The notes below the pieces were generated by a model, which was not told the origin of the DNA, searched no databases, and worked only from the letters and a program-made list of their open reading frames with translations. DNA of 32,323 bases from an uncultured Nitrospira sp. (GTDB lineage: Bacteria; Nitrospirota; Nitrospiria; Nitrospirales; Nitrospiraceae), in assembly GCA_902500705.1 (NCBI GenBank), contig CABVRR010000023.1, positions 1 to 32,323 on the forward strand, given 5' to 3'. Positions 3,176-32,165 of the stretch are shown here, piece by piece. Both the position numbers and the translations under genes were made by a program. Every line of letters starts with the position of its first letter. Positions within the stretch are counted from its first letter, which is position 1.

Positions 3176-3246
3176 ATGATAAATCTGTCAGCGCGAAGGA
3201 CAGCCCGCATCAATCAAGCAAGCCCATGCCGAGGGGAGGCATATAT

Positions 3247-5160
3247 ATGGATGCACAAGGACCGTGGGACCATAAGAATCAGGAAGCAGCGCGTGTGGCG
3301 GCCGATCACGAGGGAAGGGAAGAGCAACTCTTAATCAGCCGGCTCAGGGTGGAAAGCATCCTTGAATCCGCGATGGATGCGATCATCACCGTGGATGAGA
3401 AACAGAGAGTCTTGCTGTTCAATCACGCGGCGGAACAGATGTTTGGCTGTTCCACTCGCGAAGCCATCAGCCAGCCACTCGACCGATTTTTGCCCGTTCG
3501 TTTCCGCGACGCCCATCGCCACCATGTTCACACATTCGGGCAATCGGGAGTCACGAGTCGGAAAATGGATCGCCTGGGCACCGTGATGGGGCTCCGCTCC
3601 AACGGAGAAGAATTTCCGATCGAAGCGGCGATCTCGCAGATTAGGGTGGAGGACAAGAAATATTACACCGTCATTCTACGTGATATCACAGAACGGAAAC
3701 GAGCTGAAGACGCCCGCCAAGAGAGTCAGCGACAACTCGCCACCCTAATCGGAAATCTCCCGGGCTTCGTGTATCGGTGCCGAAATACTCGTAGCTGGAC
3801 ATTTGAATACCTCAGTAAGGGAGTGTTGGATTTAACGGGATATACCATCGAAGAATATCTCGTGCAACGAACGGTCTCGTACGGCGACAACATCCACCCA
3901 GGTGACCGCAGGCGAGTCTGGCAGGATGTACAGGTCGCCGTGGCACAACATTATCCGTTCGAGGTGACCTACCGAATCCTCACCAAATCAGGTGAGGCGA
4001 AGTGGGTGTGGGAACGGGGTGGAGGGATTTACGCGTCGGACGGCACGCTCAATTATTTGGAAGGGTTCGTCACTGATATTACGGAACGAAAGCGAGCCGA
4101 ACACTTGCTGCGACAGAGCGAAGAGCGCTATAGGCGCCTGATCGAGGTCTCGCCCTACGCCGTTTTAGTCAATCAGGGTGATCGCATTCTGTTTGCGAAC
4201 GACCAGGCTATCAAACTGTTCGGAGCGGTCAAGACCAATGAGATTGTGGGGAAACAGATGATGACTCTATTCCATCCGGATTGTCGCGTCGTCGTGTGTG
4301 AGCGGATTCATGACTTGCTCGAAGGGAACGCGCAGATGCCCATGCTCGAGGAGCAAATCTTGACGTTGGACAACAGAGCGGTGGACGTGGAAGTCAGTGC
4401 GGCGCGATTTACGGATGAAGAAGGGCCGGCCATCTTGGTCATGCTCCGAGACGTCAGCGAACGGAAACGGCTGCAGGAACAGTTGCGAAAAACCGAGCGC
4501 ATCGCCGAACTCGGCACCCTGGCCTCCGGTATGGCTCACGAGATCGGGACGCCGATGAATGTCATTCTGGGTCGTGCCGAATATCTGATGGATCGTGTGA
4601 CGGAAGAGCCGATCAAAAAGGGGCTTCAGACCATCATTACTCAGGTTGAACGGATCACCCGAGTGATGAACCAATTGCTTGCCCTTGCACGGCGCAAGTC
4701 TCCCGAGCGCACTCTGGTCGACATGAAAGCCATCGTTGAAGACGGCCTTGAGTTCTTTCAGGAACGATTCAGGAAAAGCCACATCACGGTGGAACTGATG
4801 TTCCAGGACGACTGCCCAAAGGCCTTGGCCGATCTGGATCACATGAGTCAGGTCTTCATCAATCTTGTGATGAATGCGGTACATGCCATGCCGGACGGCG
4901 GAACGCTACGGATCAGTTTGACACCGGAAAAACAGATGGTAAAACTGACGGTCGCCGATACGGGCCATGGCATTCCATCGGACGCGATGAAAAAAATTTT
5001 CGAGCCGTTTTTTACGACGAAAGAATTCGGCAAGGGGACCGGGTTGGGATTGACCGTGGTTAAGGGGATCATTGAGGAGCATCAAGGTTCCATCACCGTT
5101 GAAAGCGAAGCAGGGGAGGGCACGATCTTTACGATCCGGCTGCCTAGCAGTCAGATGTGA
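3247..5160 (+). CDS. Soluble multi-PAS sensor histidine kinase (NtrB type)
   Basis: 637 residues with no membrane segments, so a cytoplasmic sensor. Three PAS domains, each closed by a DITERKRAE-like or DVSERKR-like PAC ending, occupy about residues 35-150, 165-285 and 290-405. They are followed by the dimerisation/phospho-acceptor domain with H431 in MAHEIGTPMN, and a HATPase domain with N543 in the N-box, DTGHG, and FEPFFTTK...GTGLGL. The GTP-for-SRP change after the histidine and this overall design fit NtrB-like kinases that phosphorylate sigma-54 activators. The best partner is the regulator at 1601-2980. The start at 3247 is chosen for the strong GGGGAGG site eight bases upstream; an ATG at 3226 has none. 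The PAS ligands cannot be read from sequence. Confidence 0.92.
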   Translation: MDAQGPWDHKNQEAARVAADHEGREEQLLISRLRVESILESAMDAIITVDEKQRVLLFNHAAEQMFGCSTREAISQPLDRFLPVRFRDAHRHHVHTFGQSGVTSRKMDRLGTVMGLRSNGEEFPIEAAISQIRVEDKKYYTVILRDITERKRAEDARQESQRQLATLIGNLPGFVYRCRNTRSWTFEYLSKGVLDLTGYTIEEYLVQRTVSYGDNIHPGDRRRVWQDVQVAVAQHYPFEVTYRILTKSGEAKWVWERGGGIYASDGTLNYLEGFVTDITERKRAEHLLRQSEERYRRLIEVSPYAVLVNQGDRILFANDQAIKLFGAVKTNEIVGKQMMTLFHPDCRVVVCERIHDLLEGNAQMPMLEEQILTLDNRAVDVEVSAARFTDEEGPAILVMLRDVSERKRLQEQLRKTERIAELGTLASGMAHEIGTPMNVILGRAEYLMDRVTEEPIKKGLQTIITQVERITRVMNQLLALARRKSPERTLVDMKAIVEDGLEFFQERFRKSHITVELMFQDDCPKALADLDHMSQVFINLVMNAVHAMPDGGTLRISLTPEKQMVKLTVADTGHGIPSDAMKKIFEPFFTTKEFGKGTGLGLTVVKGIIEEHQGSITVESEAGEGTIFTIRLPSSQM

Positions 5161-5460: not shown

Positions 5461-6858
5461 TTGAGATACGAGATCATCTTGTCCAAAGCAGAACATGCCG
5501 ATGACGCGGCGGCGTCGGATCCCATCATTGCCGCGAGAATCGAGGCGATCAAGCAATTAGCGCAGGGAATGTCAGACCGAGTCGCGGTCATGGACCGATC
5601 GTTCAACATCGTCTACGCGAATGAAGCGGCTTGGGCGGCAGAGTCACCCACACGCTCTCATCGGTCTCCTGCCAAATGTTATGAAGCCTTTGCGCACCGC
5701 ACCGACCCCTGCGGGAGTTGTCCCGCCGTCAAGGTGTTCGAGGCGCCTGAGGTGCAGAGCGTCTCGTGTTCCGGAGGAGGAGACGGTGCCGCATGTGGAA
5801 TGCGGCAAGCCTTTCCCTTGGTGAATATGGACGGAGGGGTGTCGTCCATGTTGGTGCTCTTTAGGCTGTCGGCCCAGCCGATCTATCCTCTGATCACTGG
5901 GAGAGATCCGGCAGCGTCTGTCGTGGACCATCTCGGGCAGTTGATCGGTCGCAGTGCGATCATGCGACAGCTCTTCGACATGACTCGGCTTGTCGCGGAA
6001 AGCTCAGCGACAGTTCTCATTCAGGGGGAGAGTGGAACGGGAAAAGAACTTCTGGCACGCACCATTCATGGATTAAGCGACCGAAAGGATCAACCCTTCA
6101 TCGTGGTCGATTGCGGGTCGTTACCCGAATCGTTGCTGGAGAGTGAACTCTTCGGGCATGTGAAAGGGGCCTTCACCGGGGCTATCACAAACAAGCGCGG
6201 ACTGTTTCAAGAAGCCGATGGGGGAACGATCTTCCTCGACGAGATTGCCGATACCACGCCGATCTTTCAAGCTAAATTGCTGCGAGTGCTGCAGGAAGGT
6301 GAAATCAAACCGGTCGGCGGAACGAAGCCGATCACCATTCATGCGCGCGTCATCTCTGCGTCGAACAAGAATCTTGTCGATTTGGTGAAGGCCAAACTGT
6401 TTCGACAGGACCTCTACTATCGACTGGCGGTCTTACCCTTATATTTGCCGGCTCTGAGAGAACGACGTGAAGATATCCCGCTGCTGGTCAAGCATTTTGT
6501 CGCCACATCGTGCGCTCGCCACCATCAACCGGTTCGACAGATCGCGGAACGAACCATGCGGGCCTTACATGATGCGCCATGGCAAGGCAATATAAGAGAG
6601 TTGCAACACTCGATTGAACGGGCGGTCGTGACAACCACCGGGCCGTGGCTTGTCTGCGATGAACAGATAGAACTGGACGTCGCAAACGAAGACGAAAGTC
6701 TATGGTCAACGTCGCGCGGGGTGGTTGCCCAGGCTGAACGTGTACGGATCGTTGATGCACTGGAGAAGACGGCAGGCAATCGATCGAAAGCGGCCAAACT
6801 GCTGAAAATCAGCCGAGCGAGTCTGTACAACAAGCTTCGTGCCTATCACATCGACTAG
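5461..6858 (+). CDS. Sigma-54-dependent activator with Cys-rich PAS-like sensor domain
   Basis: 465 residues if the TTG at 5461 is the start. The N-terminal 125 or so residues are a PAS-like domain ([14 protein letters not shown]...) with a Cys cluster of the CYEAF...PCGSCPAVK type plus two further cysteines downstream, which suggests a redox, metal or Fe-S sensing role (inference). The AAA+ domain has Walker A GESGTGK at 189-195, an intact GAFTGA loop at 236-241 and Walker B FLDEI. A Fis-type helix-turn-helix ([21 protein letters not shown]) ends the protein. No receiver domain is present, so control is by ligand or redox state instead of a kinase. The start is uncertain: TTG 5461 has a poor ribosome site, and ATG 5569 (residue 37) has AGGGA only two bases away. 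Confidence 0.87.
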
Positions 6859-7211
6859 CGTCAGGTTGTTCCTTTCTGCCTCTTCCCGCAGTTACACCTG
6901 TCTAAGTGTCTGGATAGTTCAACCTATTCAAATGATGGACAACGGCTCAGCTGACTCCCAAAACTGTCTATTTATTTAGAGTGTGGGGTTCGTCCCGCAA
7001 GTCGTGAAAACGGCTGAGTGATTCACGATCGCCGCTACTGGCATGCCAATCCTCACTTCCTGCTTCTTGCGCACAAAGCTTGCTCGATTCGGAACATAGA
7101 GTCTGAGCGGTCTGACCTTGAACGCAAGAGGTCTGTTGAGGACGCTCTTGGAGATGTGTGATGGGCAGGGTCGATCATCATGTGTGTGTCTGACAGGAAG
7201 AGGGAGGAAAC
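6859..7211. other. Intergenic region upstream of amoC
   Basis: 353 bases without a supported gene. It ends in a strong ribosome site (GGGAGGAAAC) for amoC. A 6-bp hairpin, CAAGAG (7125-7130) with CTCTTG (7145-7150), lies in the probable leader. I could not assign a convincing promoter. Confidence 0.45.
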
Positions 7212-8033
7212 ATGGCTTCAATGGAATCTGAACGTTCTGGGAAAATTCATGCCTTTTGGTACAACACGATGCCGCTCAAGGCCGGCTGGCTTGGGATGCT
7301 GGCCATCGGCATCTTCTGGGTCATGTATCAACGCATCTTCGGGTACTCGCACGGGTTGGACTCCATGACTCCCGAGTTCGACTCGGTGTGGATGGGACTG
7401 TGGCGCTTCAACATTATCGCCAACGCCATCTTCTTCGCGATATCCGTCGGATGGATTTGGTCGACTCGGGATCGCAACTTGGCCAACTTGGATCCCAAGC
7501 TCGAGCTCAAGAGGTATTTCTATTGGCTGAGCTGGCTGGTTTGTTACATCTGGGGTGTGTACTACGCGGGCAGCTACACGTTGGAACAGGATGCGGCGTG
7601 GCACCAAGTGATCATCCGGGATACGAGCTTCACGGCAAGCCACATTGTGGCGTTCTACGGAAGCTTCCCCTTGTACATCACGTGTGGGGTGTCCAGTTAT
7701 CTGTATGCACAGACGCGGTTACCGCTGTACAGCCAAGCGACGTCGTTCCCGCTGGTGGCGGCGGTCGTAGGGCCGATGATGATTCTGCCGAACGTGGGCT
7801 TGAACGAGTGGGGCCATGCGTTTTGGTTCGTGGATGAGCTGTTCTCGGCGCCGTTGCACTGGGGCTTCGTGACATTGGGCTGGTGCGGGTTGTTTGGGGC
7901 AGCGGGCGGTGTGGCGGCGCAGATCGTCAGCCGGATGTCGAATCTGGCGGACGTGATCTGGAACGGCGCGCCGAAAGATATTCTCGATCCATTTTCGAAG
8001 CAGGTAGGCACCGGGACGAAGACCGGGTACTAA
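7212..8033 (+). CDS. amoC: Ammonia monooxygenase subunit C, stand-alone copy
   Basis: 273 residues, the usual AmoC length. It is a polytopic membrane subunit of copper ammonia monooxygenase, which oxidises ammonia to hydroxylamine. About six hydrophobic segments are visible. The conserved metal-ligand pattern D127-x3-H131-x12-H144 (EQDAAWH...TASH) matches the membrane copper site known from PmoC, so the protein looks functional. The start at 7212 is supported by GGGAGGAAAC just upstream. No amoA or amoB follows within this window, so this is an orphan copy like the extra amoC genes known from ammonia oxidisers, including comammox Nitrospira. Its codon use and GC look like the neighbours'. The flanking genes are sigma-54 regulators and a 2OG oxygenase. 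Confidence 0.95.
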
Positions 8034-8542
8034 ACAGAAGCCAGGAGGTCGTCGTATCAGACCAGAGCCGCCATTGGTCTGGTGAGGCTCGGCACGCCGG
8101 TGAATGGGTGTCGAGCCTCATGGCGTTGCGCCGTCTAGTCATGCAGGTCGATGGACCTTCACATCCTTCGAATTATTCCCCGCACAACCGCTGTGATCGT
8201 GCTCACTGGCTGGCTGGTTTCTGTGTGCCTCGGTGGATCTGTGGGCACCATGGACGGACCTGCAACAGCTCCTCCCTTCAGTGTCTGAGACAGACGGCCG
8301 CACCACGTCGATACAGATAGCGTTACTCATCTGTCCCTTTCCGCACTGAACTCGCAGGCGGACGTCCATCGATATAGACAGCCTAAGTGAATGATATACG
8401 AACGATCGAACGAGACGTTCTCTATGACTGTCCAAACAGATGGATTGCGTGACGACACAACACGAGATGCTGATACTCGATGAAGAGTCCCTTCTTCGCT
8501 TCTATCGTACGAATACATCGAATAAGAGGCGATAAGTCATCA
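8034..8542. other. Gene-free stretch downstream of amoC
   Basis: About 510 bases with no coding region I can support; open frames here lack ribosome sites and family likeness. It contains a long hairpin just after amoC (8084-8119) and a small inverted repeat, GAACG-AGA-CGTTC, near 8408-8420. It leads up to the sigma-54 promoter at 8543. Confidence 0.5.
8084..8119 (+). other. 12-bp stem-loop 50 nt after amoC
   Basis: GAGGCTCGGCAC pairs with GTGTCGAGCCTC (11 Watson-Crick pairs and one G-U) around a 12-base loop. No U-run follows. It could be a Rho-independent-like end, a processing site or a 3' stabiliser of the amoC mRNA. A smaller 6-bp hairpin (AGACCA/TGGTCT) precedes it at about 8060-8081. 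Confidence 0.5.
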
Positions 8543-8558
8543 TGGCACAGACGTTGCT
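8543..8558 (+). promoter_or_regulatory. Near-consensus sigma-54 promoter TGGCAC-N5-TTGCT
   Basis: TGGCAC (8543-8548) and TTGCT (8554-8558) match both halves of the sigma-54 consensus, with GG 8544-8545 and GC 8556-8557 ten bases apart. This is the best such site in the window. The predicted start is near 8569. It faces a structured, terminator-ended stretch, not a start codon. Confidence 0.75.
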
Positions 8559-8568
8559 GACCTGTTGA

Positions 8569-8717
8569 ACAGAGACACAGAGGACCGGCTCTGTACGAGG
8601 CTGAATCGTGATTCGCCCTGTCGCGATTCTGCCCATCGTTTCAAGGTGAGTGGTCGCCCCGACCGCCACATGTCAGCGGTGAGGGGGTCACCGGTGAGAG
8701 TGGCCCCCTCATTTTCT
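8569..8717 (+). ncRNA. Candidate sigma-54-driven small RNA or attenuated leader
   Basis: About 149 nt lie between the predicted sigma-54 start and an intrinsic terminator. Three hairpins are visible before the terminator: ACAGAG/CTCTGT (8577-8594, 6 bp); AATCGTGA/TCGCGATT (8604-8628, 8 bp with one G-U); and GGTCG/CGACC (8652-8664, 5 bp). No open frame with a ribosome site fills the interval. It can be read as a free regulatory RNA. Alternatively it is the leader of the oxygenase gene at 8779, whose start lies 62 bases beyond the terminator. Both ends are predicted, not measured, and I recognise no known RNA family. Confidence 0.5.
8680..8717 (+). terminator. Strong Rho-independent terminator
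   Basis: TGAGGGGGTCAC (8680-8691) pairs with GTGGCCCCCTCA (8700-8711), 12 bp with one G-U, around an 8-base loop, followed directly by TTTTCT. An alternative hairpin CGGTGA/TCACCG (8677-8693) would use part of the left arm and could act as an antiterminator. Confidence 0.85.
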
Positions 8718-8778: not shown

Positions 8779-9639
8779 ATGCAGTGTCAAAGGATCGATG
8801 TGGAGGAACATCTGAACAGCGCGTTGGCAGGGGTAGATCTTACGCACTCAAGCCGGACCTACTGGGAACAGAACGAATGCCTCATTCTCGACAGGTTCAT
8901 CCCCAAAGCCATCGTGAATCCTTGCCTCACTGAGGTCGAGCGGTTCCGGAAGAACATCTATCGCAATTTCGTGCCGGGCCACAAGCAGGGAGGCAGCGTC
9001 AGTTATTATGCGATTGCCAATGAGTCGGGTCGGTCATCCACTATCCTTTCGCTCTATCGCTCCCCTGCGGTGCGCCGGTTTTTAAGCTACATCGTGAAAG
9101 AAACCCTGTTGCTCTGTCCGGAGCAGGATCCCCATTCCTGTGCGCTCTATTACTACACGCAGCCGGGGGACCACATCGGGTTTCATTACGACACGTCGTA
9201 CTACAAAGGGAAGCGGTACACGGTCTTGATGGGTTTGATCGAGCGATCCGAGCACTGTCATCTGGTTGCTCACATGCCTAAACCGGGAACGAAAAAAGAC
9301 GTGTGCGAGCAGTCTATTCCGCTCGATCCGGGGTCGCTGGTGATTTTCAACGGAGACAAGCTGTGGCATGCGGTGACGCCGCTTAGGCCACGCGAAGAAC
9401 GGATCGTCCTCACGATGCAGTATGTGACCGATCAGAAGATGGGACCGTTTTACCGCGCCTTCTCGAATCTAAAAGATATCTTCGGGTATTTCGGTCCGGC
9501 TGCCTTGATCCATCGACCGAAAGAGATGCAGGCGACGAGTCACACTCGCGCATCTGTCCGATCAGATGTCCTGACCGAGCATCCGACATGGCAATTCCCC
9601 ACGGGAGCCACTGATGCGCTTGTCCATCGCGATTCCTGA
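8779..9639 (+). CDS. 2OG-Fe(II) dioxygenase-like protein (prolyl-hydroxylase fold)
   Basis: 286 residues. The facial triad of Fe(II)/2-oxoglutarate oxygenases is present: H136-Y-D138 and H197, with R208 in the ERIVLTMQY strand as the likely 2-oxoglutarate ligand. The core GDHIGFHYDTSYYKGKRYT and the LDPGSLVIFNGDKLWHAVTP block are typical of the prolyl-4-hydroxylase-like branch. The substrate is unknown; hydroxylation of a protein or small molecule is possible. It has no signal peptide. The start at 8779 is chosen for the GGAGAAGG site five bases upstream; an ATG at 8728 lacks one and sits only 11 bases after the terminator's U-run. It may be expressed by readthrough from the sigma-54 promoter or from an unseen promoter of its own. 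Confidence 0.8.
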   Translation: MQCQRIDVEEHLNSALAGVDLTHSSRTYWEQNECLILDRFIPKAIVNPCLTEVERFRKNIYRNFVPGHKQGGSVSYYAIANESGRSSTILSLYRSPAVRRFLSYIVKETLLLCPEQDPHSCALYYYTQPGDHIGFHYDTSYYKGKRYTVLMGLIERSEHCHLVAHMPKPGTKKDVCEQSIPLDPGSLVIFNGDKLWHAVTPLRPREERIVLTMQYVTDQKMGPFYRAFSNLKDIFGYFGPAALIHRPKEMQATSHTRASVRSDVLTEHPTWQFPTGATDALVHRDS

Positions 9640-22079: not shown

Positions 22080-22844
22080 TTACGGCTGCTCCGGACCACA
22101 CGGTTTCAGCGCATCGACTCGCTGAGCTGCAACCGCAGCTTCCCATCCCTGGCCACAAGAGAGCAGGTAAACTTGTAACGGATTCTGGAATCGAGGACCC
22201 AATCGGGTCCGCACATCTGCCTCGACTTCTTCCGTCTCAAACAAGATCTCGCAGTCGGACAACCCCTGGAGACCGATCCCTTCTGCCTTGAGCAGCGCCT
22301 CCTTCGCGACCCAGTAGCGGAAGAATTTCGTCGCGCGATGCCCCTCTCGACACTGCATGATGGTTGCGTGTTCGGAGCGCGTGAAGTAGCGCTCGGCTAG
22401 TGTGGCGACCTCGACACCCGAACGAACACATTCAAGATCGACGCCGACCTCTTGCGCTCGCGAGACCGCAATGAGTGCGCGGCCATGGGCATGAGACAAA
22501 TTAAAAGTGATGCCTGACCGACCTGGTTGTTTCTCTGTCAGGAAAGGCTTGCCCGTTGCACGGCGATCCAGAGTCACCTCATCCGGACGGACCCTAAGAT
22601 ATCTCCCTAACAATGTTCTCAGACCTCCGTGAGCCAGCACGTAGTGTTGCCGGATGTCCTCGCGAACAAAACGAGCGGCTCGTTGCCGCTCGACGTCATC
22701 CAGCCATCCCACGCATTGCTCCACGCACTGTGGTGACCCGTCGAGCTCAATCCCCCACAGGTGTATGGCGTACGGCTCAAGCTCGATGGAATTCTGTCCA
22801 TGCGATTCGATGAGATGCTCAATAGACTGGAACGAGATCAGCAC
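22080..22844 (-). CDS. Sfp-type 4'-phosphopantetheinyl transferase
   Basis: 254 residues. It transfers phosphopantetheine from CoA to the active serine of carrier proteins. Signature motifs are GVDLE (Mg-binding Asp/Glu) and FFRYWVAKEALLKAEG (the WxxKEA motif), along with TGKPFL and FNLSH before them, in normal order and spacing for the Sfp/AcpT group. It lies 57 bases downstream of the NRPS gene on the same strand, which makes it the obvious activator of that enzyme's three carrier domains. It converges with ftsH. The start at 22844 gives the expected length. Confidence 0.93.
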   Translation of the reverse strand: MLISFQSIEHLIESHGQNSIELEPYAIHLWGIELDGSPQCVEQCVGWLDDVERQRAARFVREDIRQHYVLAHGGLRTLLGRYLRVRPDEVTLDRRATGKPFLTEKQPGRSGITFNLSHAHGRALIAVSRAQEVGVDLECVRSGVEVATLAERYFTRSEHATIMQCREGHRATKFFRYWVAKEALLKAEGIGLQGLSDCEILFETEEVEADVRTRLGPRFQNPLQVYLLSCGQGWEAAVAAQRVDALKPCGPEQP

Positions 22845-22901: not shown

Positions 22902-25900
22902 TCACGCCGCCTTGTTGTGCGGTTGGACAGGCGCATCGTGAGAATGTTCGGCGACATAATGTCGAATATAAGAGGATACGTCTTCGACATGCGGGGAAAC
23001 AACCAGGTCTGTCGTTCGAAGGGTCGGAATATGGATGGTTTGGCAATTGCCGCCGGACAGCTCATTCCATCCGTACCGGGTATCGTGCGCATCAATATGT
23101 TGAGAAGCCATGATGTTGAGGAGGTGTCCGGCATATGGACGCATCGTATAGCGAGCAGCGGCGTGGAACATCGCTTGCCGGACGCGCTTGATCTGGCGTC
23201 GTCTTAACGTATCTCCGCTGGGAGGATCAAAATAGGACATGAAAGAGGTGTACTTACGACGAATGACCGCCAGTTGCTTGCTCAGTGGGATACGCCGGAG
23301 ATCGGCGATGGTTCGCCACAGCTTCCAAAGAATGCCCAACGGTAAGACAAATCGGCTTGGGCGAGCAACCTCAGCGGTATCATAATGCCGGTGATACGAA
23401 CTCGGCTGCCAGCTGTTCACGATGCAGAGAACGACCGGTGCACCCTGTTCCACTAATTGTTGTGCCATTTCATAGGCAACCAGCCCACCGGTGCAGGCAC
23501 CGACGATAACATAGGGTCCTTGCGGGAGGCGTGTGCGCATTTCAGTGATGTATTGCGTTGCCATCTCCGGCACGGAAGCGAATGGTGCCGCAGTCCCGTC
23601 CAATCCCCTGGCTTGTAAGCCGTACACCGGGTGTGTCTGACCCAACAGTCTTCCCAACTGTGCGAGCCACAACACATTGCCCATGACGCCCGGCACCAAA
23701 AAAATGGGGACGGCCGACCCGCTTGGCTGCATCGCTACCAGTGATTGCCACGGGGGCGTCCAGTGTTCTTGCGTCAGAACCGACGTGAGCCCGGCGATAG
23801 TCGGTGCTTGAAACAGGGTGGGAAGCGGAAGGTGTCGGCCGTAGACCTGCTCGATGAGATAGAACAGTTGAGCGGCTTTGAGAGAGTGGCCGCCGAGATC
23901 GAAAAAATTGTCGTGGATGCCGATCCTGTCGATCCCGAACACTTGGTGCCACAAGGCCGCCATTTGTATCTCCATCCGATCGCGCGGCGCAACCTGAACA
24001 GCATCGGTTGAGGGCGTGGTGGTTGGAGCCGGCAAGGCTTTCCGGTCGACCTTATTATTGGCCGTCAAGGGTAAGGCCGGCAAAAAGACGAAGAGCGAAG
24101 GGACCATATATTCCGGAATCTCCGACCGCAGAAATGAACGAAGGTCCGATTGGCTTGGAGCCGCACCGTCCTGGCAGACCACATAGGCCACGAGTTGCTT
24201 CACACCCTGTTGATCTTCCCGAGCGACAACCACGGCTTGACGGATAACATGATAACGGTTCAGCGCCGACTCGATCTCACCCAACTCGATCCGGAATCCT
24301 CTGATCTTGACCTGGTTATCCATTCGTCCCAGATGCACGATGCGTCCATCCGGACGATAGCGGGCCAGATCTCCCGTTCGATATAGTCTTGCGAACGGCT
24401 CCGGAGAAAATGGATGAGGAATGAATCGATCGGTTGTTAACTCCGGCCGTCCTCGATAGCCTCGGGCCAATCCATGGCCTCCGATGTAGAGTTCACCGGA
24501 TACGCCGATCGGAACCGGTTGGAAGTACTGATTCAAGATGTACACATCGGTATTCGCAATGGGTTTTCCAATCGTGATCTCATGGTCGGCCCGTTCGATG
24601 TGTTCGATCGTCGACCAAATCGTCGTTTCGGTCGGGCCGTACATATTCCAGAGCGCACCGCTCCGATCCAACAACGATGTCGCCAGATCAGGAGGAAGAG
24701 CCTCTCCACCGCAGAGGACCGTCAAGTTCTTACCGCCCAGCCATCCGGCTTCGATCAACATGCGCCATGTAGCGGGGGTCGCTTGCATGATCGTCGGCTG
24801 AACGGTTTCACAGAGGGCCCGCAGTTGTCGCCCGTCCATGGCGACCGCGCGGCCGGCAATCTCGACACGGGCTCCGACCAGTAACGGCACATACAATTCT
24901 AAGCCGAAAATATCGAAAGAGATCGTCGTCACGGAGAGCATGACATCGTGAGCCGAACAACCCGGTTCGTGCCGTATGGAGCACAAAAAGTTCACCAGCG
25001 CTCGATGTGGAATTTCCACCCCCTTGGGCTGCCCTGTCGATCCTGAGGTATACAGAATGTACGCCAGGTCTTGGGGCGTCGCGCTCGGCGGAAGGTTCTG
25101 ATCGGCTTCTTGCGCGATCCGTTCCCATTCGCGATCGAGGCAGAGCATGCGATAGAGTCGAGCATCGAATCGATCGGAAAGATCCGTCGTCGTGATCACG
25201 ACGGCAGCCGAGGCGTCTTGAGCCATAAACCGAAGCCGATCTCGTGGAAACTCGGGATCGAGCGGCACATAGGCCGCACCGGTTTTCAGCGCGGCCACCA
25301 ACGCGATGACCATCTCCACGGATCGCTCAAGACTGATGCCCACCGCGACTCCCGGCCGAGCACCCAGCGTGTGGAGATGGCGTGCCAGCTGATTGGCTCG
25401 CGCATTGAGCTCACCGTACCGCAGCGTCTTCTGTCCCATCGAGACCGCAACGGCATCAGGTGTCCGTTCAACTTGAGCTTCAAACAGCTGAGGAAAACAG
25501 TCGAACTGTGGATACTCTTTTTGCGTACGGTTCCACTCCAGCAGCATCTGTCGGCGTTCGGATACCGTCAGCGTCGGAAGCTCAGACAGCTTGCTCTGAG
25601 GATTGGCTAAGGCACTCTGGAGCAGTATTTTATACTGTCCCAACATTCGTTCGGCGGTCTGAGGTTCGAAGAGATCGGTATTGAACGTCAAATAGGCTTT
25701 TCGTGAAAACTCGGTCTCGATTGTCAAGCTCAAGTCGAATTGTGCGGCTTGTGCTTCGACCTCAAACGGCACCCAGCTCAATGCTTGGACATTGATCTCT
25801 CTGATCGGCGCATTCGGCACATTGAAGAGGACCTGCACCAGCGGGGCAGAGCTATGGTCGCGCGCGGAGTGCATGGTCTCGACCAGTTTATCGAAGGGAA

Positions 25901-28900
25901 AGTCTTGATGTGCGTAGGCCTCCAGCGCCGTTTCACGCACTTGCGCCAACAACTCGATGAATGTCGGATCGCCGGAGAGATCGGTGCGCAAAACAAGGGT
26001 ATTGACGAACGAACCAATGATCGACTCGACTGCAGATTGAGTTCGGTTGGCGATCGGAGAACCCACGGCAACATCGGCTTGACCGGAGTAGCGACTCAAG
26101 AGAATCTGGAAACAGGTCAATAGGGTCATGAAGGTCGTCGCATGCTGTTCCGCGCTGAATTGCTTCAGTTGCTCGATCAACGATACGGGCAACTCCAGCA
26201 TGCGATGGGAGCCGTTGAATGTCTGTGTTACGGACCGTGGGTAATCGGTCGGCAACGACAGTTTGGAAAGCCCGGCCAGCTTCTTTTGCCAATACTCCGA
26301 TTGTGCGCGCAGCCAGTCATCGGTCAGCGAACGCCGCTGCCACACCGCGTAGTCGGCATACTGAAGGAGGATCGGTTTTGCGGGCGGCGAGTCTCCACGG
26401 CAAAAGGCGTTGTAGAAAACCGCAAACTCATAACCGATGATCCCGAACGACCATTGGTCACCGATGATATGGTGCATCGTGAGCACCAACACATGATCCT
26501 CGGGTTCGACCTCAATCAAAAGAAACCGCGCGAGCGGGCCGTTCTCAAGATCGAACGGCTGGTTCGCTTCCTGCTCCACCAGCCGCGCCGCCTGCTGCCG
26601 TCGCTGGTCGGAGGGGAGGTGCAAGAGAGCTACTTCGGTCCAATGAGGCGGGCGAAAAGGATGGACGATTTGGACCGGTCCCTCGCCCGTCATCATGAAC
26701 GTTGTTCGAAAGGCCTCATGCCGTGTGCAGATGGCATCGATCGTGTTCCGGAGGGCCGCTTTGTCGAGGCGCCCCATCTGCCGCGACGCAAACGGCATGT
26801 TATACGCCGTGCTTTTCGGAGCCAGTTGATACATCAACCACATGCGTTGCTGAGAATAGGAAAGAGGAAGTGGTTGGTCTCTGGGTACCGGAATGATCGG
26901 CGGCATCGCGGAGGCCTTCTGATCTCGTTGGCGCAGCCGCGCCACTTCCTCGGCCAACGCCGCGATCGTGGGGCGATCAAAAAGCGCGGACAGCGAGACG
27001 TCCACGTCGAAAATCTCGCGTATCCGGGAGACGAGCTGGGTTGCCAACAGCGAGTGACCTCCGTGCTCGAAGAAATGGTCGTGGATGCCTGCCTCCGGAA
27101 CTTCCAGCACGGTTTTCCAGAGCTCGGCTAAGGATTCTTCGACCTGGTTTCTTGGAGCCGTCCTTGGGGCCGCATGACCGGCTGCCTGTTCCGGAGCGGG
27201 AAGCGCGCGACGATTCACTTTGCCTGTGGCGTTGAGCGGCATCGTATCAAGGCACAGAATGACGGACGGCATCATATAATGCGGGACTCGCGCGGCGAGA
27301 TATCCGCGAATCTGCTCGAGCTGTTTGCTGAGCGACGACTCACCTGCGACATACCCGACCAACCGGTGCTGATCCCGTTTATCCTCACGAAGCAGCACTG
27401 TGGCGTGACGCACCCCCGGGAAATTGCTCAGTGCATATTCGATTTCTCCGAGTTCGATCCGATAGCCGCGCAGCTTGACTTGCTGGTCCATCCGTCCAAG
27501 AAATTCCACATTGCCGTCGGCGCGATATCGAGCCAGGTCGCCCGTCCGATACAGCCTGGTCCCGGCCACATAAGGATTTGCGAGAAACCGCTCTTGGGTC
27601 AACTGCGGTTGGTTGACATAGCCGCGGGCCAGACATTCTCCCGCGATATAGAGTTCTCCTGGTACGCCGATCGGCGTCGGTTGCAGGCGGGCATCCAGCA
27701 CGTAGAGCTGCATATGCGCGATGGGTTTGCCGATCGGAACTCGGGCGCCGACTTCCTCACGAGTCGTCTGATACACGCTGCACCAGACCGTGGCTTCCGT
27801 CGGTCCATATTCGTTGTACAGCACGGCCTGAGGGAGCAACTGGTAATGCCGTCGTACAAGTTCGAGGGGAAGGCTTTCTCCGGCCGTCACGACGACACGG
27901 AGCGAGTCCAGTTGATCGCTCACCGCTTCGCCCAGCACCGCATGATACAACGAAGGAACCCACACCACGTGCGTGATACGGTGATGTTCGATGAGCGCCG
28001 AAAGCTCGGCGGGGTCGCGATGAACGGTTTCTGAGGGGATGACCAGCTCTCCTCCCTGCAGCAATGTCCAAAAGATGCCCGTCACGGCCCCATCAAAAGC
28101 CAGGGAGAAACTGAGCAAGAACCGGGATACCGGTTCAGGATAGTACTGAAATCTGGCATGAAGAGAGGTCATCAGACTGCGGTGTGTCACGGCCACGCCC
28201 TTCGGTCGGCCGGTCGAGCCTGATGTGTAGATGATATACGCGAGCCGATCCGGGGAAGCGGACAGCGCGAGGTTCTGGTCCTCGGCTCCGTCCACGGTGG
28301 ATGCAGACAACGCCTCCACGTCGCAGACTAGGCCGCCATAGCTCTGTAAATGGTTTCGAAGGTGAGTCTGTGTGACGACGATGGAAACCTGTGCGTCCTC
28401 CAGTATGAGCTGAAGGCGGTGATCAGGGAAGGAGGGATCCAGCGGAACGTAGCCTCCTCCCGCTTTGAGAATGCCTAAGAGGCCGACGAGAGCGTCCACC
28501 GAACGCTCGACACAGAGACCCACCGGGAAATCTGCACTGACCCCCAGTTTCTGAAGCGCGTGCGCGACCCGATTCGCTCGCCGGTTCAGCTCATCGTAGC
28601 TGAGGGACTGGTCTCCGCACCTGACGGCGAGGGCATGGGGAGTTCGCTCAACCTGCGCCTCGATGAGCGCATGAATTCCGGAGGCTGAAATGGACGGCTT
28701 GGCCCATGTCAGGGGAATGTTTCGCCGCTCATCCGAGGTCAGCAAAGACAGTTGATCAAGGCGGGCTTCAGGTTTCGTAAGAAATTCCTCAAGCAGGATC
28801 TCAAGCTGCTCCAACATTCGGGCGATCGTCGAGCCGTCAAAAATCGTGGAGTCATGGAGAAATGCCAGTTCCAAACCGTCCGCTTTGTTGATCACCATCA

Positions 28901-31900
28901 ACACGAGATCGAATTCCGCTGCCGTCGGCTCCCAGGGGAGATGCGTCACCTCAATGTCCTTGACGGTGAACGTGGACAAGGGATCGTCTTCACCCACGAT
29001 CATGACGTTAAACAATGGGGACAACTGACGCGCTCGCTGTAGCGAGAGCGCTTCGATCACCTCTTCAAACGGGAGTTCCTGATGATCGTACGCATCCACG
29101 ATCACTCGGCGTGCCTGCTGCAACAGCTCTTCTCCCGTCAGCCCATCCGACAGGTCGGCCCGCAACGCCACCGTATTGACGCAATACCCCATCACGTCTT
29201 CGAATTCTTTCCGTCGTCTGCCGGCCACGATCGACCCGATCACGACATCCGATGTTTGGGTGTAGCGATGCAGCCATGTCGCAAAGACGGCAAACAGCGT
29301 CATGAATGTCGTGACGTTCTGGCGTTGACAGAAGAGATCGAGGCGGGCTGAAAGCTCCGGAGGCAGCGATCGTGACCGTACGCCTCCCTCGAACGTGCGC
29401 GTCCGTAGTCGCTGCCGATCGATCGGGAGTTCAACGGGAGGGAGGGCGTCGCTCAATTGCCGAATCCAGTAGGCTCGCTGGGTCGCCCGCAGGCCTTGCT
29501 CAAGCCTGGTTTTCTGCCAAGCGACATAGTCCGCATATTGAACGGCCGAGGCGGAAAGTCGAGCGCTTTGCCCGTCGCCGCCGGCCTTCCACAACCGGGC
29601 CAATTCCTTGAAGAAGATACGGAGCGACCATCCGTCGGCGACGAGACGGTGGACTGTCAGCACCAGGACATGCACATCTTGTGAAAGCGCCAGCAGGGCC
29701 ACTCTGAACAGCGGTCCCTGTCGTAAGTCGAACGGTCGACCTCTTTCCGTTCGCAGGAATTGTTCTACGTGAAGGTTTTGCTTTTCGGGATCTAAGGTTT
29801 GGAAATCATGTCGACCTATGGTGAGGATCGTCTCAGCAGAGGCTTCCGCGAACCCCTCGCCCTGCTCCGATCCGAAACGAGTTCGAAGAATCTCGTGACG
29901 CCGAGTAATTTCCCGAACCGAGCGCTCCAATACTTCGGGGTCGACCGATCCTCGTAGACGCACAGCCATGGAGATATGATTGATCGCGCTTCCGGGATGC
30001 ACTTGCTCGAGGAACCACAGTCGCTGTTGTGAGGGGCTGAGGGGAAGCTTGCCTTGTCTTGTAGATGCCGGGGGAAGCGGAGCGAGAGGAATCCCTGCCT
30101 TGCCGTCTCCCTCTGTCTGTCCCGGCCCCTCCTCGGTCCGGTCCGCGCCGTCAGGACTCGCGCTCAGTTCGCCGATCCGAGCGGCCAGTGCGGACAAGGT
30201 CGGATATTCAAACAGCACACTGATGGGGAGTTCGATGTGGAAGACATCGAGGATGCGTGCGACAACCTGCGCTGCGAGGAGAGAATTACCTCCGAGTGCA
30301 AAGAAGTTCGCATGGCGATGCGGAGAAGATCCGCCCAACACCTCATGCCAGATATCGGCCAGTTGTTTTTCGACGGCAGTGTACGGAGGCTCGCTCGATC
30401 CCTTCTCGGTCTCAGCTTCCGAAGCTTGGTCCAACGTGCTCGTTCCGACGACAGCAAGTCGACCCGACTCAAAGGCGGCTTTGCAGGCGCCCCGCTGAAT
30501 TTTTCCGCTGGACGTTCTCGGGATCGTGCCGGACTTGATCAGCACGATCCGGTGGATTTCAAGCTCGTAGTCGTCAGCCAACGCGCGACGGATGCAGGTC
30601 AGCACATCCGCTAACTCGGATTCGGGTACGTGTTTCTCGATCTCATGGACCAGCACCACCTGTTCTCCGGTCGTGCCGTCAATCGAGAAGGCTGCTCCAT
30701 ATCCTCGTCGCAAGCCGGGATGCGCTTGTTGGGCCGCCCACTCCAGATCTTGAGGATAATAGTTCCGTCCGCGCACGATGATCAGATCTTTGAGGCGTCC
30801 GGTCAGGAACAGTTCCCCACGGTGAAGAAATCCTAGGTCGCCTGTTCGTAAATACGGACCCTCTCCTGACCCGGCGAGCGTGGCGTGAAAGGTCGCGTCG
30901 GTTTCTTCCGGTTTGTTCCAGTACCCAGCGCCGATCCCGGCTCCGGCCAACCATACTTCTCCTACCACGCCTGGCTGGCACTCAACGCGAGTCGTAGGGT
31001 GTATGATCCGTACCTGCGTCGCTTCGAGGGGTTCCCCGCATCCGATCAAGGTTCTCGTGCTCTGCTCCGATGCAGGAGACGTATTGACGACCGAGTCAGC
31101 CAACGCGTCGGCATCAACGGACAAGAGGCTCGGTTCCATGCCGGTCCGTTTCATCGTCACCAAGAGCGTCGCCTCCGCCAGCCCGTATCCTGGGGTAAAC
31201 GTCGTCCGCCGAAAGCCTCGCGGGCCGAAGGTGTCGAGAAACTGCCGGACCGTACTTGGATGGATCGGTTCGGCCCCGCAACTCGCAACCCGCCATGTGC
31301 TCAAGTCGGCCCGCCACTCGTCCTGTTGCCGCACAGCTCTGAGACAAGCCTCATAGGAAAAATTCGGTCCCCCACTGTGAGTAATCGCGAATCGAGACAC
31401 CGCATCGAGCCACCGTAACGGCCGCCGGAGAAACGTGATGGGCGACATCAGGTAGGCAGGAATACCGGCATAGAACGGAGCGATGAGTCCGTGCAGCAAC
31501 CCATAGTCATGGAAATAGGGTAACCAGCAGAGCGACCGGCTGCCGTCCGACACGTCTCCGGCCAAGCTCAAGGCCCGGCAGTGAGCAAGCACGTTCCCAT
31601 GGCTGATCATGACGCCGCGAGGCGTCGCCGTCGACCCCGACGTGTATTGCAAGTAGGCAAGAGCGTTGCCGTGAGACCGTGGCCACTCAATCGAATCGAC
31701 TGCATTGATCGGCTGATCCGTCGCGATCCACGTGATCGAATGTCCGTCCTGCATGAACGCAAGCTCGGAAGAGAGTGTCTGGATGCTCGAGGTTGTGAGT
31801 ACCAGCGATACCTGGGCATCGTTGATCATGGCGCGAAGCCTCGGGAGGCTGTACTTTCGCCTGATGGGATCAGGGGCCGGAGCAGGAATCGATACAAGAC

Positions 31901-32165
31901 CCGCGCAGGCACAGGCCCAAAATGCGCACGCGGCATCGAGCCCTGGCTGGTAGAGGAGTAGGGCTCTGGTTCCTGGTGAAAATTCGCGCACGAGCCGGTC
32001 AGCGAGCGCACGCACGCGCTGTTCCAGTTGGCGATAGGTCAGTTGGCTCTCAAGTTCAAGGTTGTCACGGACAAAGGCATAGGCAAGCTCATCCGCCTGG
32101 TGCCGGCATCGAAACCAAAAAAGGTCAGCGAGGTCCTGAATGGTCGGAGGCAGCGAGGTTGACAT
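22902..32165 (-). CDS. Lipopeptide synthetase: FAAL-ACP-C-A-PCP-C-A-PCP-TE
   Basis: 3087 residues. In order: a fatty acyl-AMP ligase (about 1-565, YTSGSTATPRG, GYGLAEATL); a carrier with S628; a condensation domain C1 (about 700-1130); an adenylation domain A1 (about 1160-1660); a carrier with S1705; C2 (about 1760-2190, HHIIGDQ at 1898-1904); A2 (about 2215-2710); a carrier with S2761; and a thioesterase (about 2820-3075). A fatty acid is activated as AMP ester, loaded, joined to two amino acids and released. From motif alignment to GrsA the A2 code reads DILQLGMIWK, a glycine code; A1 reads DGTVVAEVWK, nearest in my memory to Tyr codes (DGTxTAEVAK), low certainty. C1 has HRLVADG (839-845), lacking the second catalytic His. 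The thioesterase elbow is GACTGG with C2891, Asn2917 at the usual Asp position and H3059. The product is predicted as N-acyl-X-Gly. No clear ribosome site precedes the ATG. The gene for its PPTase follows. Confidence 0.95.
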   Translation of the reverse strand: MSTSLPPTIQDLADLFWFRCRHQADELAYAFVRDNLELESQLTYRQLEQRVRALADRLVREFSPGTRALLLYQPGLDAACAFWACACAGLVSIPAPAPDPIRRKYSLPRLRAMINDAQVSLVLTTSSIQTLSSELAFMQDGHSITWIATDQPINAVDSIEWPRSHGNALAYLQYTSGSTATPRGVMISHGNVLAHCRALSLAGDVSDGSRSLCWLPYFHDYGLLHGLIAPFYAGIPAYLMSPITFLRRPLRWLDAVSRFAITHSGGPNFSYEACLRAVRQQDEWRADLSTWRVASCGAEPIHPSTVRQFLDTFGPRGFRRTTFTPGYGLAEATLLVTMKRTGMEPSLLSVDADALADSVVNTSPASEQSTRTLIGCGEPLEATQVRIIHPTTRVECQPGVVGEVWLAGAGIGAGYWNKPEETDATFHATLAGSGEGPYLRTGDLGFLHRGELFLTGRLKDLIIVRGRNYYPQDLEWAAQQAHPGLRRGYGAAFSIDGTTGEQVVLVHEIEKHVPESELADVLTCIRRALADDYELEIHRIVLIKSGTIPRTSSGKIQRGACKAAFESGRLAVVGTSTLDQASEAETEKGSSEPPYTAVEKQLADIWHEVLGGSSPHRHANFFALGGNSLLAAQVVARILDVFHIELPISVLFEYPTLSALAARIGELSASPDGADRTEEGPGQTEGDGKAGIPLAPLPPASTRQGKLPLSPSQQRLWFLEQVHPGSAINHISMAVRLRGSVDPEVLERSVREITRRHEILRTRFGSEQGEGFAEASAETILTIGRHDFQTLDPEKQNLHVEQFLRTERGRPFDLRQGPLFRVALLALSQDVHVLVLTVHRLVADGWSLRIFFKELARLWKAGGDGQSARLSASAVQYADYVAWQKTRLEQGLRATQRAYWIRQLSDALPPVELPIDRQRLRTRTFEGGVRSRSLPPELSARLDLFCQRQNVTTFMTLFAVFATWLHRYTQTSDVVIGSIVAGRRRKEFEDVMGYCVNTVALRADLSDGLTGEELLQQARRVIVDAYDHQELPFEEVIEALSLQRARQLSPLFNVMIVGEDDPLSTFTVKDIEVTHLPWEPTAAEFDLVLMVINKADGLELAFLHDSTIFDGSTIARMLEQLEILLEEFLTKPEARLDQLSLLTSDERRNIPLTWAKPSISASGIHALIEAQVERTPHALAVRCGDQSLSYDELNRRANRVAHALQKLGVSADFPVGLCVERSVDALVGLLGILKAGGGYVPLDPSFPDHRLQLILEDAQVSIVVTQTHLRNHLQSYGGLVCDVEALSASTVDGAEDQNLALSASPDRLAYIIYTSGSTGRPKGVAVTHRSLMTSLHARFQYYPEPVSRFLLSFSLAFDGAVTGIFWTLLQGGELVIPSETVHRDPAELSALIEHHRITHVVWVPSLYHAVLGEAVSDQLDSLRVVVTAGESLPLELVRRHYQLLPQAVLYNEYGPTEATVWCSVYQTTREEVGARVPIGKPIAHMQLYVLDARLQPTPIGVPGELYIAGECLARGYVNQPQLTQERFLANPYVAGTRLYRTGDLARYRADGNVEFLGRMDQQVKLRGYRIELGEIEYALSNFPGVRHATVLLREDKRDQHRLVGYVAGESSLSKQLEQIRGYLAARVPHYMMPSVILCLDTMPLNATGKVNRRALPAPEQAAGHAAPRTAPRNQVEESLAELWKTVLEVPEAGIHDHFFEHGGHSLLATQLVSRIREIFDVDVSLSALFDRPTIAALAEEVARLRQRDQKASAMPPIIPVPRDQPLPLSYSQQRMWLMYQLAPKSTAYNMPFASRQMGRLDKAALRNTIDAICTRHEAFRTTFMMTGEGPVQIVHPFRPPHWTEVALLHLPSDQRRQQAARLVEQEANQPFDLENGPLARFLLIEVEPEDHVLVLTMHHIIGDQWSFGIIGYEFAVFYNAFCRGDSPPAKPILLQYADYAVWQRRSLTDDWLRAQSEYWQKKLAGLSKLSLPTDYPRSVTQTFNGSHRMLELPVSLIEQLKQFSAEQHATTFMTLLTCFQILLSRYSGQADVAVGSPIANRTQSAVESIIGSFVNTLVLRTDLSGDPTFIELLAQVRETALEAYAHQDFPFDKLVETMHSARDHSSAPLVQVLFNVPNAPIREINVQALSWVPFEVEAQAAQFDLSLTIETEFSRKAYLTFNTDLFEPQTAERMLGQYKILLQSALANPQSKLSELPTLTVSERRQMLLEWNRTQKEYPQFDCFPQLFEAQVERTPDAVAVSMGQKTLRYGELNARANQLARHLHTLGARPGVAVGISLERSVEMVIALVAALKTGAAYVPLDPEFPRDRLRFMAQDASAAVVITTTDLSDRFDARLYRMLCLDREWERIAQEADQNLPPSATPQDLAYILYTSGSTGQPKGVEIPHRALVNFLCSIRHEPGCSAHDVMLSVTTISFDIFGLELYVPLLVGARVEIAGRAVAMDGRQLRALCETVQPTIMQATPATWRMLIEAGWLGGKNLTVLCGGEALPPDLATSLLDRSGALWNMYGPTETTIWSTIEHIERADHEITIGKPIANTDVYILNQYFQPVPIGVSGELYIGGHGLARGYRGRPELTTDRFIPHPFSPEPFARLYRTGDLARYRPDGRIVHLGRMDNQVKIRGFRIELGEIESALNRYHVIRQAVVVAREDQQGVKQLVAYVVCQDGAAPSQSDLRSFLRSEIPEYMVPSLFVFLPALPLTANNKVDRKALPAPTTTPSTDAVQVAPRDRMEIQMAALWHQVFGIDRIGIHDNFFDLGGHSLKAAQLFYLIEQVYGRHLPLPTLFQAPTIAGLTSVLTQEHWTPPWQSLVAMQPSGSAVPIFLVPGVMGNVLWLAQLGRLLGQTHPVYGLQARGLDGTAAPFASVPEMATQYITEMRTRLPQGPYVIVGACTGGLVAYEMAQQLVEQGAPVVLCIVNSWQPSSYHRHYDTAEVARPSRFVLPLGILWKLWRTIADLRRIPLSKQLAVIRRKYTSFMSYFDPPSGDTLRRRQIKRVRQAMFHAAARYTMRPYAGHLLNIMASQHIDAHDTRYGWNELSGGNCQTIHIPTLRTTDLVVSPHVEDVSSYIRHYVAEHSHDAPVQPHNKAA

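Follow-up and report, generated by a model that had tools for sequence, protein, structure and literature searches.

In the window, by which we mean the whole 32,323-nucleotide stretch of Nitrospira DNA analysed here, positions 8569-8717 (+) carry a predicted structured non-coding RNA of ~149 nt, RNA-I, which lies behind a conserved sigma-54-type promoter. Comparison of related genomes establishes, at the level of sequence, the predicted promoter, a pair of putative activator sites, the fold, the terminator, the linkage to an activator gene and the sharing of these sites with a lone amoC gene. Taken as a whole, it seems likely that RNA-I is a stand-alone regulatory RNA within a five-step chain involving a neighbouring activator, amoC and pairing in trans. 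Its architecture is best read as that of an Hfq-independent regulatory RNA with the adjacent enhancer-binding protein as its putative switch, resembling CbrB-CrcZ. An earlier note on this DNA had proposed a structured small RNA behind a sigma-54 promoter, and this is borne out by the compensatory changes and the lack of an Rfam match described below.

The region encodes an NtrC-type response regulator carrying a sigma-54 activation domain (1547-2980, +; Response_reg, Sigma54_activat and HTH_8), followed by a PAS-repeat histidine kinase, an upstream neighbour conserved by synteny (3226-5160, +; PAS, HisKA and HATPase_c), and by a sigma-54 enhancer-binding protein with AAA+ and Fis-type HTH domains and a Cys-rich N-terminal domain, the proposed activator (5461-6858, +; PF00158, E 3e-66, and HTH_8). 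Both sigma-54 activators that the earlier note placed upstream of the RNA are thus recognizable by their Pfam domains. The lone amoC, a probable co-target, lies at 7212-8033 (+; PF04896, E 2.5e-105), and a 2-oxoglutarate/Fe(II) oxygenase gene is found downstream of RNA-I at 8779-9639. Elsewhere in the window, a single ORF of 3087 aa resembling non-ribosomal peptide synthetases occupies 22902-32165 (-) and is accompanied by a putative phosphopantetheinyl transferase (22080-22844).

The predicted sigma-54 (-24/-12) promoter of RNA-I, TGGCACAGACGTTGCT, is located at 8543-8558 (+), with a predicted +1 at ~8569. The exact pattern TGGCAC-N5-TTGCW occurs at 5 sites in the whole 3.6-Mb genome, so that ~0.04 sites would be expected per 32-kb window. 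The near-consensus promoter reported at 8543 is present, and its position is kept in every intact homologue: GGCA(C/T)-N5-TTGC stands at a constant position in 36/36 intact RNA-I copies, all of which also have the GG-N10-GC core of the -24/-12 box at the correct distance from the RNA.

A BLAST search of 59 Nitrospira genomes found RNA-I homologues in 15, counting the genome of the window itself. From 13 of these homologues we built a covariance model, which was run over 79 Nitrospira genomes and identified an intact RNA-I in 35 of them (in one, G027, it is cut by the contig end), for a total of 36 intact copies in the neighbourhoods read. The conservation of promoter, stems and terminator in relatives, which the earlier note had suggested looking for, thus extends to 35/79 genomes. 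Carriers include Nitrospira sp. UW-LDO-01, CG24B, RSF1, RSF5, RSF12, UBA2082, UBA2083, UBA5698 and BO4. A survey of 197 genomes from 35 genera across the order, made with stricter filters, detected RNA-I in none of the 34 genera other than Nitrospira. An intact copy is present in 34/62 amo-positive vs 1/17 amo-negative genomes (Fisher p 2e-4), a value inflated by shared ancestry; many of the genomes are metagenome-assembled (MAGs) and incomplete, and genome counts are phylogenetically non-independent. Deletions at the RNA-I locus have occurred repeatedly. In three genomes (G101:C43, G028:C67 and G012:C3) a deletion took the promoter and the 5' part of RNA-I while amoC was retained; in three others (G018:C1, G031:C104 and G086:C52) amoC and RNA-I were both lost and the amoC-type promoter was kept.

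The segment 8560-8722 has a folding energy of -75.3 kcal/mol (z = -5.2 relative to shuffled sequences), which was equalled by 0/200 shuffles. The predicted structure comprises four stems. H1 (8577-8582/8589-8594, +) has 6 bp, with compensatory changes in 3/6 pairs. H2 (8600-8612/8620-8632, +) has 13 consensus pairs, 9 of them with compensatory changes, and a conserved C-rich apical loop, TTCGCCC. H3 (8646-8654/8662-8669, +) consists of 8 pairs and a bulge below a C-rich loop, with compensatory changes in 2/8 pairs and 96.5% of cells paired. The fourth stem is that of an intrinsic terminator (8678-8691/8700-8713, +), the best-paired stem of RNA-I (98.6% of cells), with the T tract TTTTCT at 8712-8717 and a highly conserved loop (CACAGGTGAGAGTG in the consensus, CACCGGTGAGAGTG in the window copy). 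The earlier note had read three hairpins of 6, 8 and 5 bp followed by a terminator with TTTTCT; all are present and the length of H1 was right, but H2 and H3 are longer than it stated.

Across 36 RNA-I sequences, standard pairs account for 95.1% of pair cells. Compensatory changes on both sides, which the earlier note had also proposed to seek in related genomes, were detected in 17/41 base pairs (9.5 expected from shuffles), and double changes affected 72 cells (22.8 expected); the observed score was reached in 0/500 shuffles. When the pairing partners were slid as a control, the covariation score collapsed. The 36-sequence alignment leans towards structure because it was fitted to the covariance model; the outcome was similar when 13 sequences were aligned with MAFFT without reference to structure. 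It could be objected that RNA-I has no function and owes its stable fold to chance or GC content, given that GC-rich sequence folds readily and that three genomes have lost its promoter and 5' part. However, the covariation, the fixed position of the promoter and the spacing of the upstream sites over 36 copies make this extremely improbable. A peptide-coding reading was also considered and rejected: the longest internal ORF has between 1 and 28 codons, depending on the copy, with no common frame, and no conserved ORF was found among the copies, in agreement with the claim that what follows the promoter is not a gene. The same holds for the claim that the RNA was an unrecognized one, as comparison of RNA-I with Rfam at gathering and permissive thresholds returned nothing meaningful and no curated model matched.

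The neighbourhoods of the 36 copies indicate which gene accompanies RNA-I. A sigma-54 activator gene of the 5461-6858 type lies directly upstream in 27/36 copies, amoC is inserted between the activator gene and RNA-I in 7/36, and 2/36 copies are at contig ends. The constant partner of RNA-I is thus the activator gene and not amoC. The lone amoC that the earlier note set beside the RNA is indeed its neighbour in the window; among intact copies this is a minority arrangement. On the other side, the following gene varies (an oxygenase, a 168-aa Cys-rich protein, a beta-barrel or genes on the opposite strand). This bears on the proposal that RNA-I works in cis on the oxygenase gene, as a leader or attenuator, with the RNA-I terminator as a conditional switch. 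Leaders are frequent on sigma-54 transcripts, the oxygenase gene starts 30-100 nt past the terminator in several genomes, and RNA-II, a related RNA described below, does precede a gene. However, RNA-I stays constant while the downstream gene changes between genomes, which argues against its being the leader of one gene; moreover, no alternative antiterminator pairing is evident, and the terminator is the stem with the best pairing. We therefore regard a leader function as quite improbable and retain the reading of RNA-I as a stand-alone RNA.

Upstream of the promoter we identified two palindromes of the form GTCYA-N6-TRGAC. In nearly all copies the distal one, GTCCA-TCGATA-TAGAC in the window (8364-8379, +), is 176-181 nt and the proximal one, GTCCA-AACAGA-TGGAT in the window (8430-8445, +), 111-115 nt upstream of the box; this spacing is kept though the intervening sequence has diverged. 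An equivalent pair precedes amoC, with a distal GTCTA-AGTGTC-TGGAT (6900-6915, +) and a proximal GTCTA-TTTATT-TAGAG (6966-6981, +), the latter conserved in 10 aligned genomes, and the spacing of 66 nt within this pair is identical to that of the RNA-I pair. A strict search for the pair found exactly 2 occurrences in the window's genome, before amoC and before RNA-I, and likewise 2 each, before the same two units, in G024 and G091, which are finished or near-finished relatives. In G061 and G068, both devoid of the amoC insertion, it occurs once each. The reversed-pattern control gave 0 hits. A looser pattern of one palindrome plus box, applied to 16 genomes, yielded at least one match per genome and 2 control matches in total; the matches were mostly the promoters of RNA-I, RNA-II and amoC. 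Extra matches near the amo cluster in G019, G061, G066 and G068 look incidental, the two that were read (L234 and L241) being inside coding sequence. Separately, a palindrome and a sigma-54 site precede a different long ORF at G062:C10:393595-393792 (L232), a possible further member of the regulon.

A candidate variant sigma-54 box, GCGCACAAAGCTTGCT, is found before amoC at 7069-7084 (+). It is weaker by consensus because -25 is occupied by a base other than G; we argue that it is used because it is conserved within a diverged region at a constant distance from the sites. G(C/T)GCAC-N5-TTGC is present in 10/10 aligned upstream regions of amoC genes that follow the activator gene, and the same 10 regions carry the palindrome pair. 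As judged from these shared elements, RNA-I and the lone amoC are probably switched on together by a common activator. The AmoC protein of this locus is mostly 91-96% identical to its same-locus orthologues and about 86% identical to other AmoC copies. According to a review (PMC6311188), one or more non-operonal amoC genes are present in comammox genomes.

The protein encoded at 5461-6858 is our candidate for the common activator. Its N-terminal region occurs in 71/79 Nitrospira genomes. Five Cys of this region are unchanged throughout an alignment of 18 sequences, a hint of redox or metal sensing. This region had no Pfam match and no convincing relative in the PDB by sequence, and a structure model of the domain (mean pLDDT 51.7) was too low in confidence for use. 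In G069:C64, three matches to the region within ~9 kb suggest a tandem duplication. The true activator might instead be the NtrC-type regulator encoded at 1547-2980, together with its kinase, as both regulators are in the cluster in most genomes and AAA+ and Fis-type HTH domains are found in each. However, in most genomes examined that lack an intact RNA-I, the palindromes begin 40-45 nt past the stop codon of the 5461-6858-type gene; moreover, the copy number of RNA-I tracks this gene in G075 and G100, each of which has two copies of both. We thus consider the NtrC-type regulator a somewhat unlikely activator, and infer that the sites are bound by the Cys-rich 5461-6858 protein.

Canonical Nitrospira, and some others, have the same palindromes and a sigma-54 box behind the activator gene, but the RNA that comes next is a different one, RNA-II. 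As the activator gene of canonical Nitrospira has this other RNA after it, the activator can do without RNA-I. RNA-II is structured and very conserved, has the core GGACCGGCCTCCGAATGACCC and precedes a multicopper-oxidase-like gene (an example is at G000:C27:8008-8028, L190). Its core is present in 71/79 Nitrospira genomes, almost always once and including genomes with RNA-I, with the box ~53 nt and the palindrome ~235 nt upstream at nearly fixed distances. Where RNA-II was compared with Rfam, no match was obtained; this RNA is possibly a leader with a link to metals or redox state. Six further genomes have RNA-III behind this activator gene (L085 in G009, L157 in G076, L148 in G080, L145 in G082, L135 in G083 and L140 in G084), an RNA that keeps the terminator type of RNA-I, with the loop CACAGGTGAGAGTG in 4/6, and has an unrelated 5' half. 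Somewhat tentatively, we propose that the Cys-rich sigma-54 activator could run a genus-wide, RNA-centred regulon, which would comprise a leader RNA of the multicopper oxidase in the whole genus and, essentially in comammox, an independent small RNA and, in some lineages, a spare AmoC.

The mechanism that we propose can be outlined as follows. The 5461-6858 protein would bind the two phased palindromes GTCYA-N6-TRGAC, which precede the -24 box by ~180 and ~113 nt, and would activate sigma-54 RNA polymerase. An RNA-I of ~150 nt would be made and would stop at its own intrinsic terminator. Through the equivalent pair of sites, the same protein would activate the lone amoC, so that a spare AMO subunit and RNA-I would be produced together. 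Finally, and here we can only conjecture, RNA-I might be a trans-acting, Hfq-independent RNA whose C-rich H2 and H3 loops and conserved GGUGAG terminator loop would probably pair with mRNAs; any signal proposed for the circuit, such as the nitrogen or redox response named in the earlier note, is equally conjectural. The H2, H3 and terminator loops were no more complementary to 26 amoC translation starts than shuffled sequences were (z scores scattered about 0), and therefore no target is supported. Hfq (PF17209) was not detected in the window's genome and 8 relatives (nine Nitrospira, G060 included), with positive controls detected elsewhere.

RNA-I might also sequester a protein instead of pairing with mRNAs, as CrcZ does with Hfq/Crc and CsrB with CsrA. 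The cbrB-crcZ-like gene arrangement, the compact multi-hairpin form of the RNA and the failure to detect Hfq, which would favour pairing, in the nine genomes are consistent with this. However, the CsrA-type motif ANGGA occurs in only 4/36 RNA-I copies, once in each, with no repeated binding motif, and the CrcZ-type AANAANAA in 0/36; a sponge of the CsrA or CrcZ type was rejected on these counts. Hfq, a partner of CrcZ, was itself not detected, though another protein could take its place. Overall, sequestration appears unlikely, and with no Hfq detected, no sponge motifs and no loop complementarity to amoC starts above that of shuffled sequences, RNA-I is best called a regulatory RNA without an assigned target.

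Sigma-54-dependent RNAs under NtrC-class activators include the Qrr RNAs with LuxO in Vibrio and GlmY/GlmZ with GlrR in enterobacteria, some of which are encoded beside their activator; Qrr and GlmY work in association with Hfq or RapZ. RNA-I resembles them in its predicted sigma-54 and NtrC-class control but has no match in Rfam. The closest described arrangement is CbrB-CrcZ, in which crcZ adjoins cbrB and which has in common with RNA-I a sigma-54 activator, phased upstream sites and a sigma-54 promoter (predicted for RNA-I). In Pseudomonas, CbrB is a sigma-54-class activator of the small RNAs CrcZ and CrcY that acts from multiple phased upstream sites (PMC6296734). However, CbrB recognizes three non-palindromic subsites (PMC6296734) whereas two palindromes precede RNA-I; the A-rich motifs of CrcZ occur in 0/36 RNA-I copies, no Hfq was detected and Rfam gave no sequence relation. 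For amoC, the singleton amoC3 of Nitrosomonas europaea is likewise non-operonal; it is linked to stress and under an alternative sigma factor, sigma-32 (cited in PMC6311188), whereas the lone amoC here has predicted sigma-54-type elements. In contrast to the lone amoC with its paired RNA, no RNA is mentioned there for amoC3.

A search of open-licence papers yielded no account of a regulatory RNA in comammox or other Nitrospira, and in one published Nitrospira transcriptome small RNAs were removed during preparation. The regulation of ammonia oxidation in comammox has been little understood so far, and a conserved RNA and an amoC with common switch elements suggest that these nitrifiers have an RNA-based control circuit not described before. 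The present analysis offers a specific candidate activator, a binding motif, promoters and predicted transcripts, all of which are checkable by RNA-seq of existing enrichments, and the RNA-I sequence model could be used to find this RNA in metatranscriptomes. It also proposes a regulator for the non-operonal amoC, a type of gene found in comammox genomes without an explained role. If the proposal is true, comammox bacteria would have connected part of their acquired ammonia-oxidation machinery to an older sigma-54/RNA circuit of Nitrospira, which may serve in copper, redox or starvation stress.
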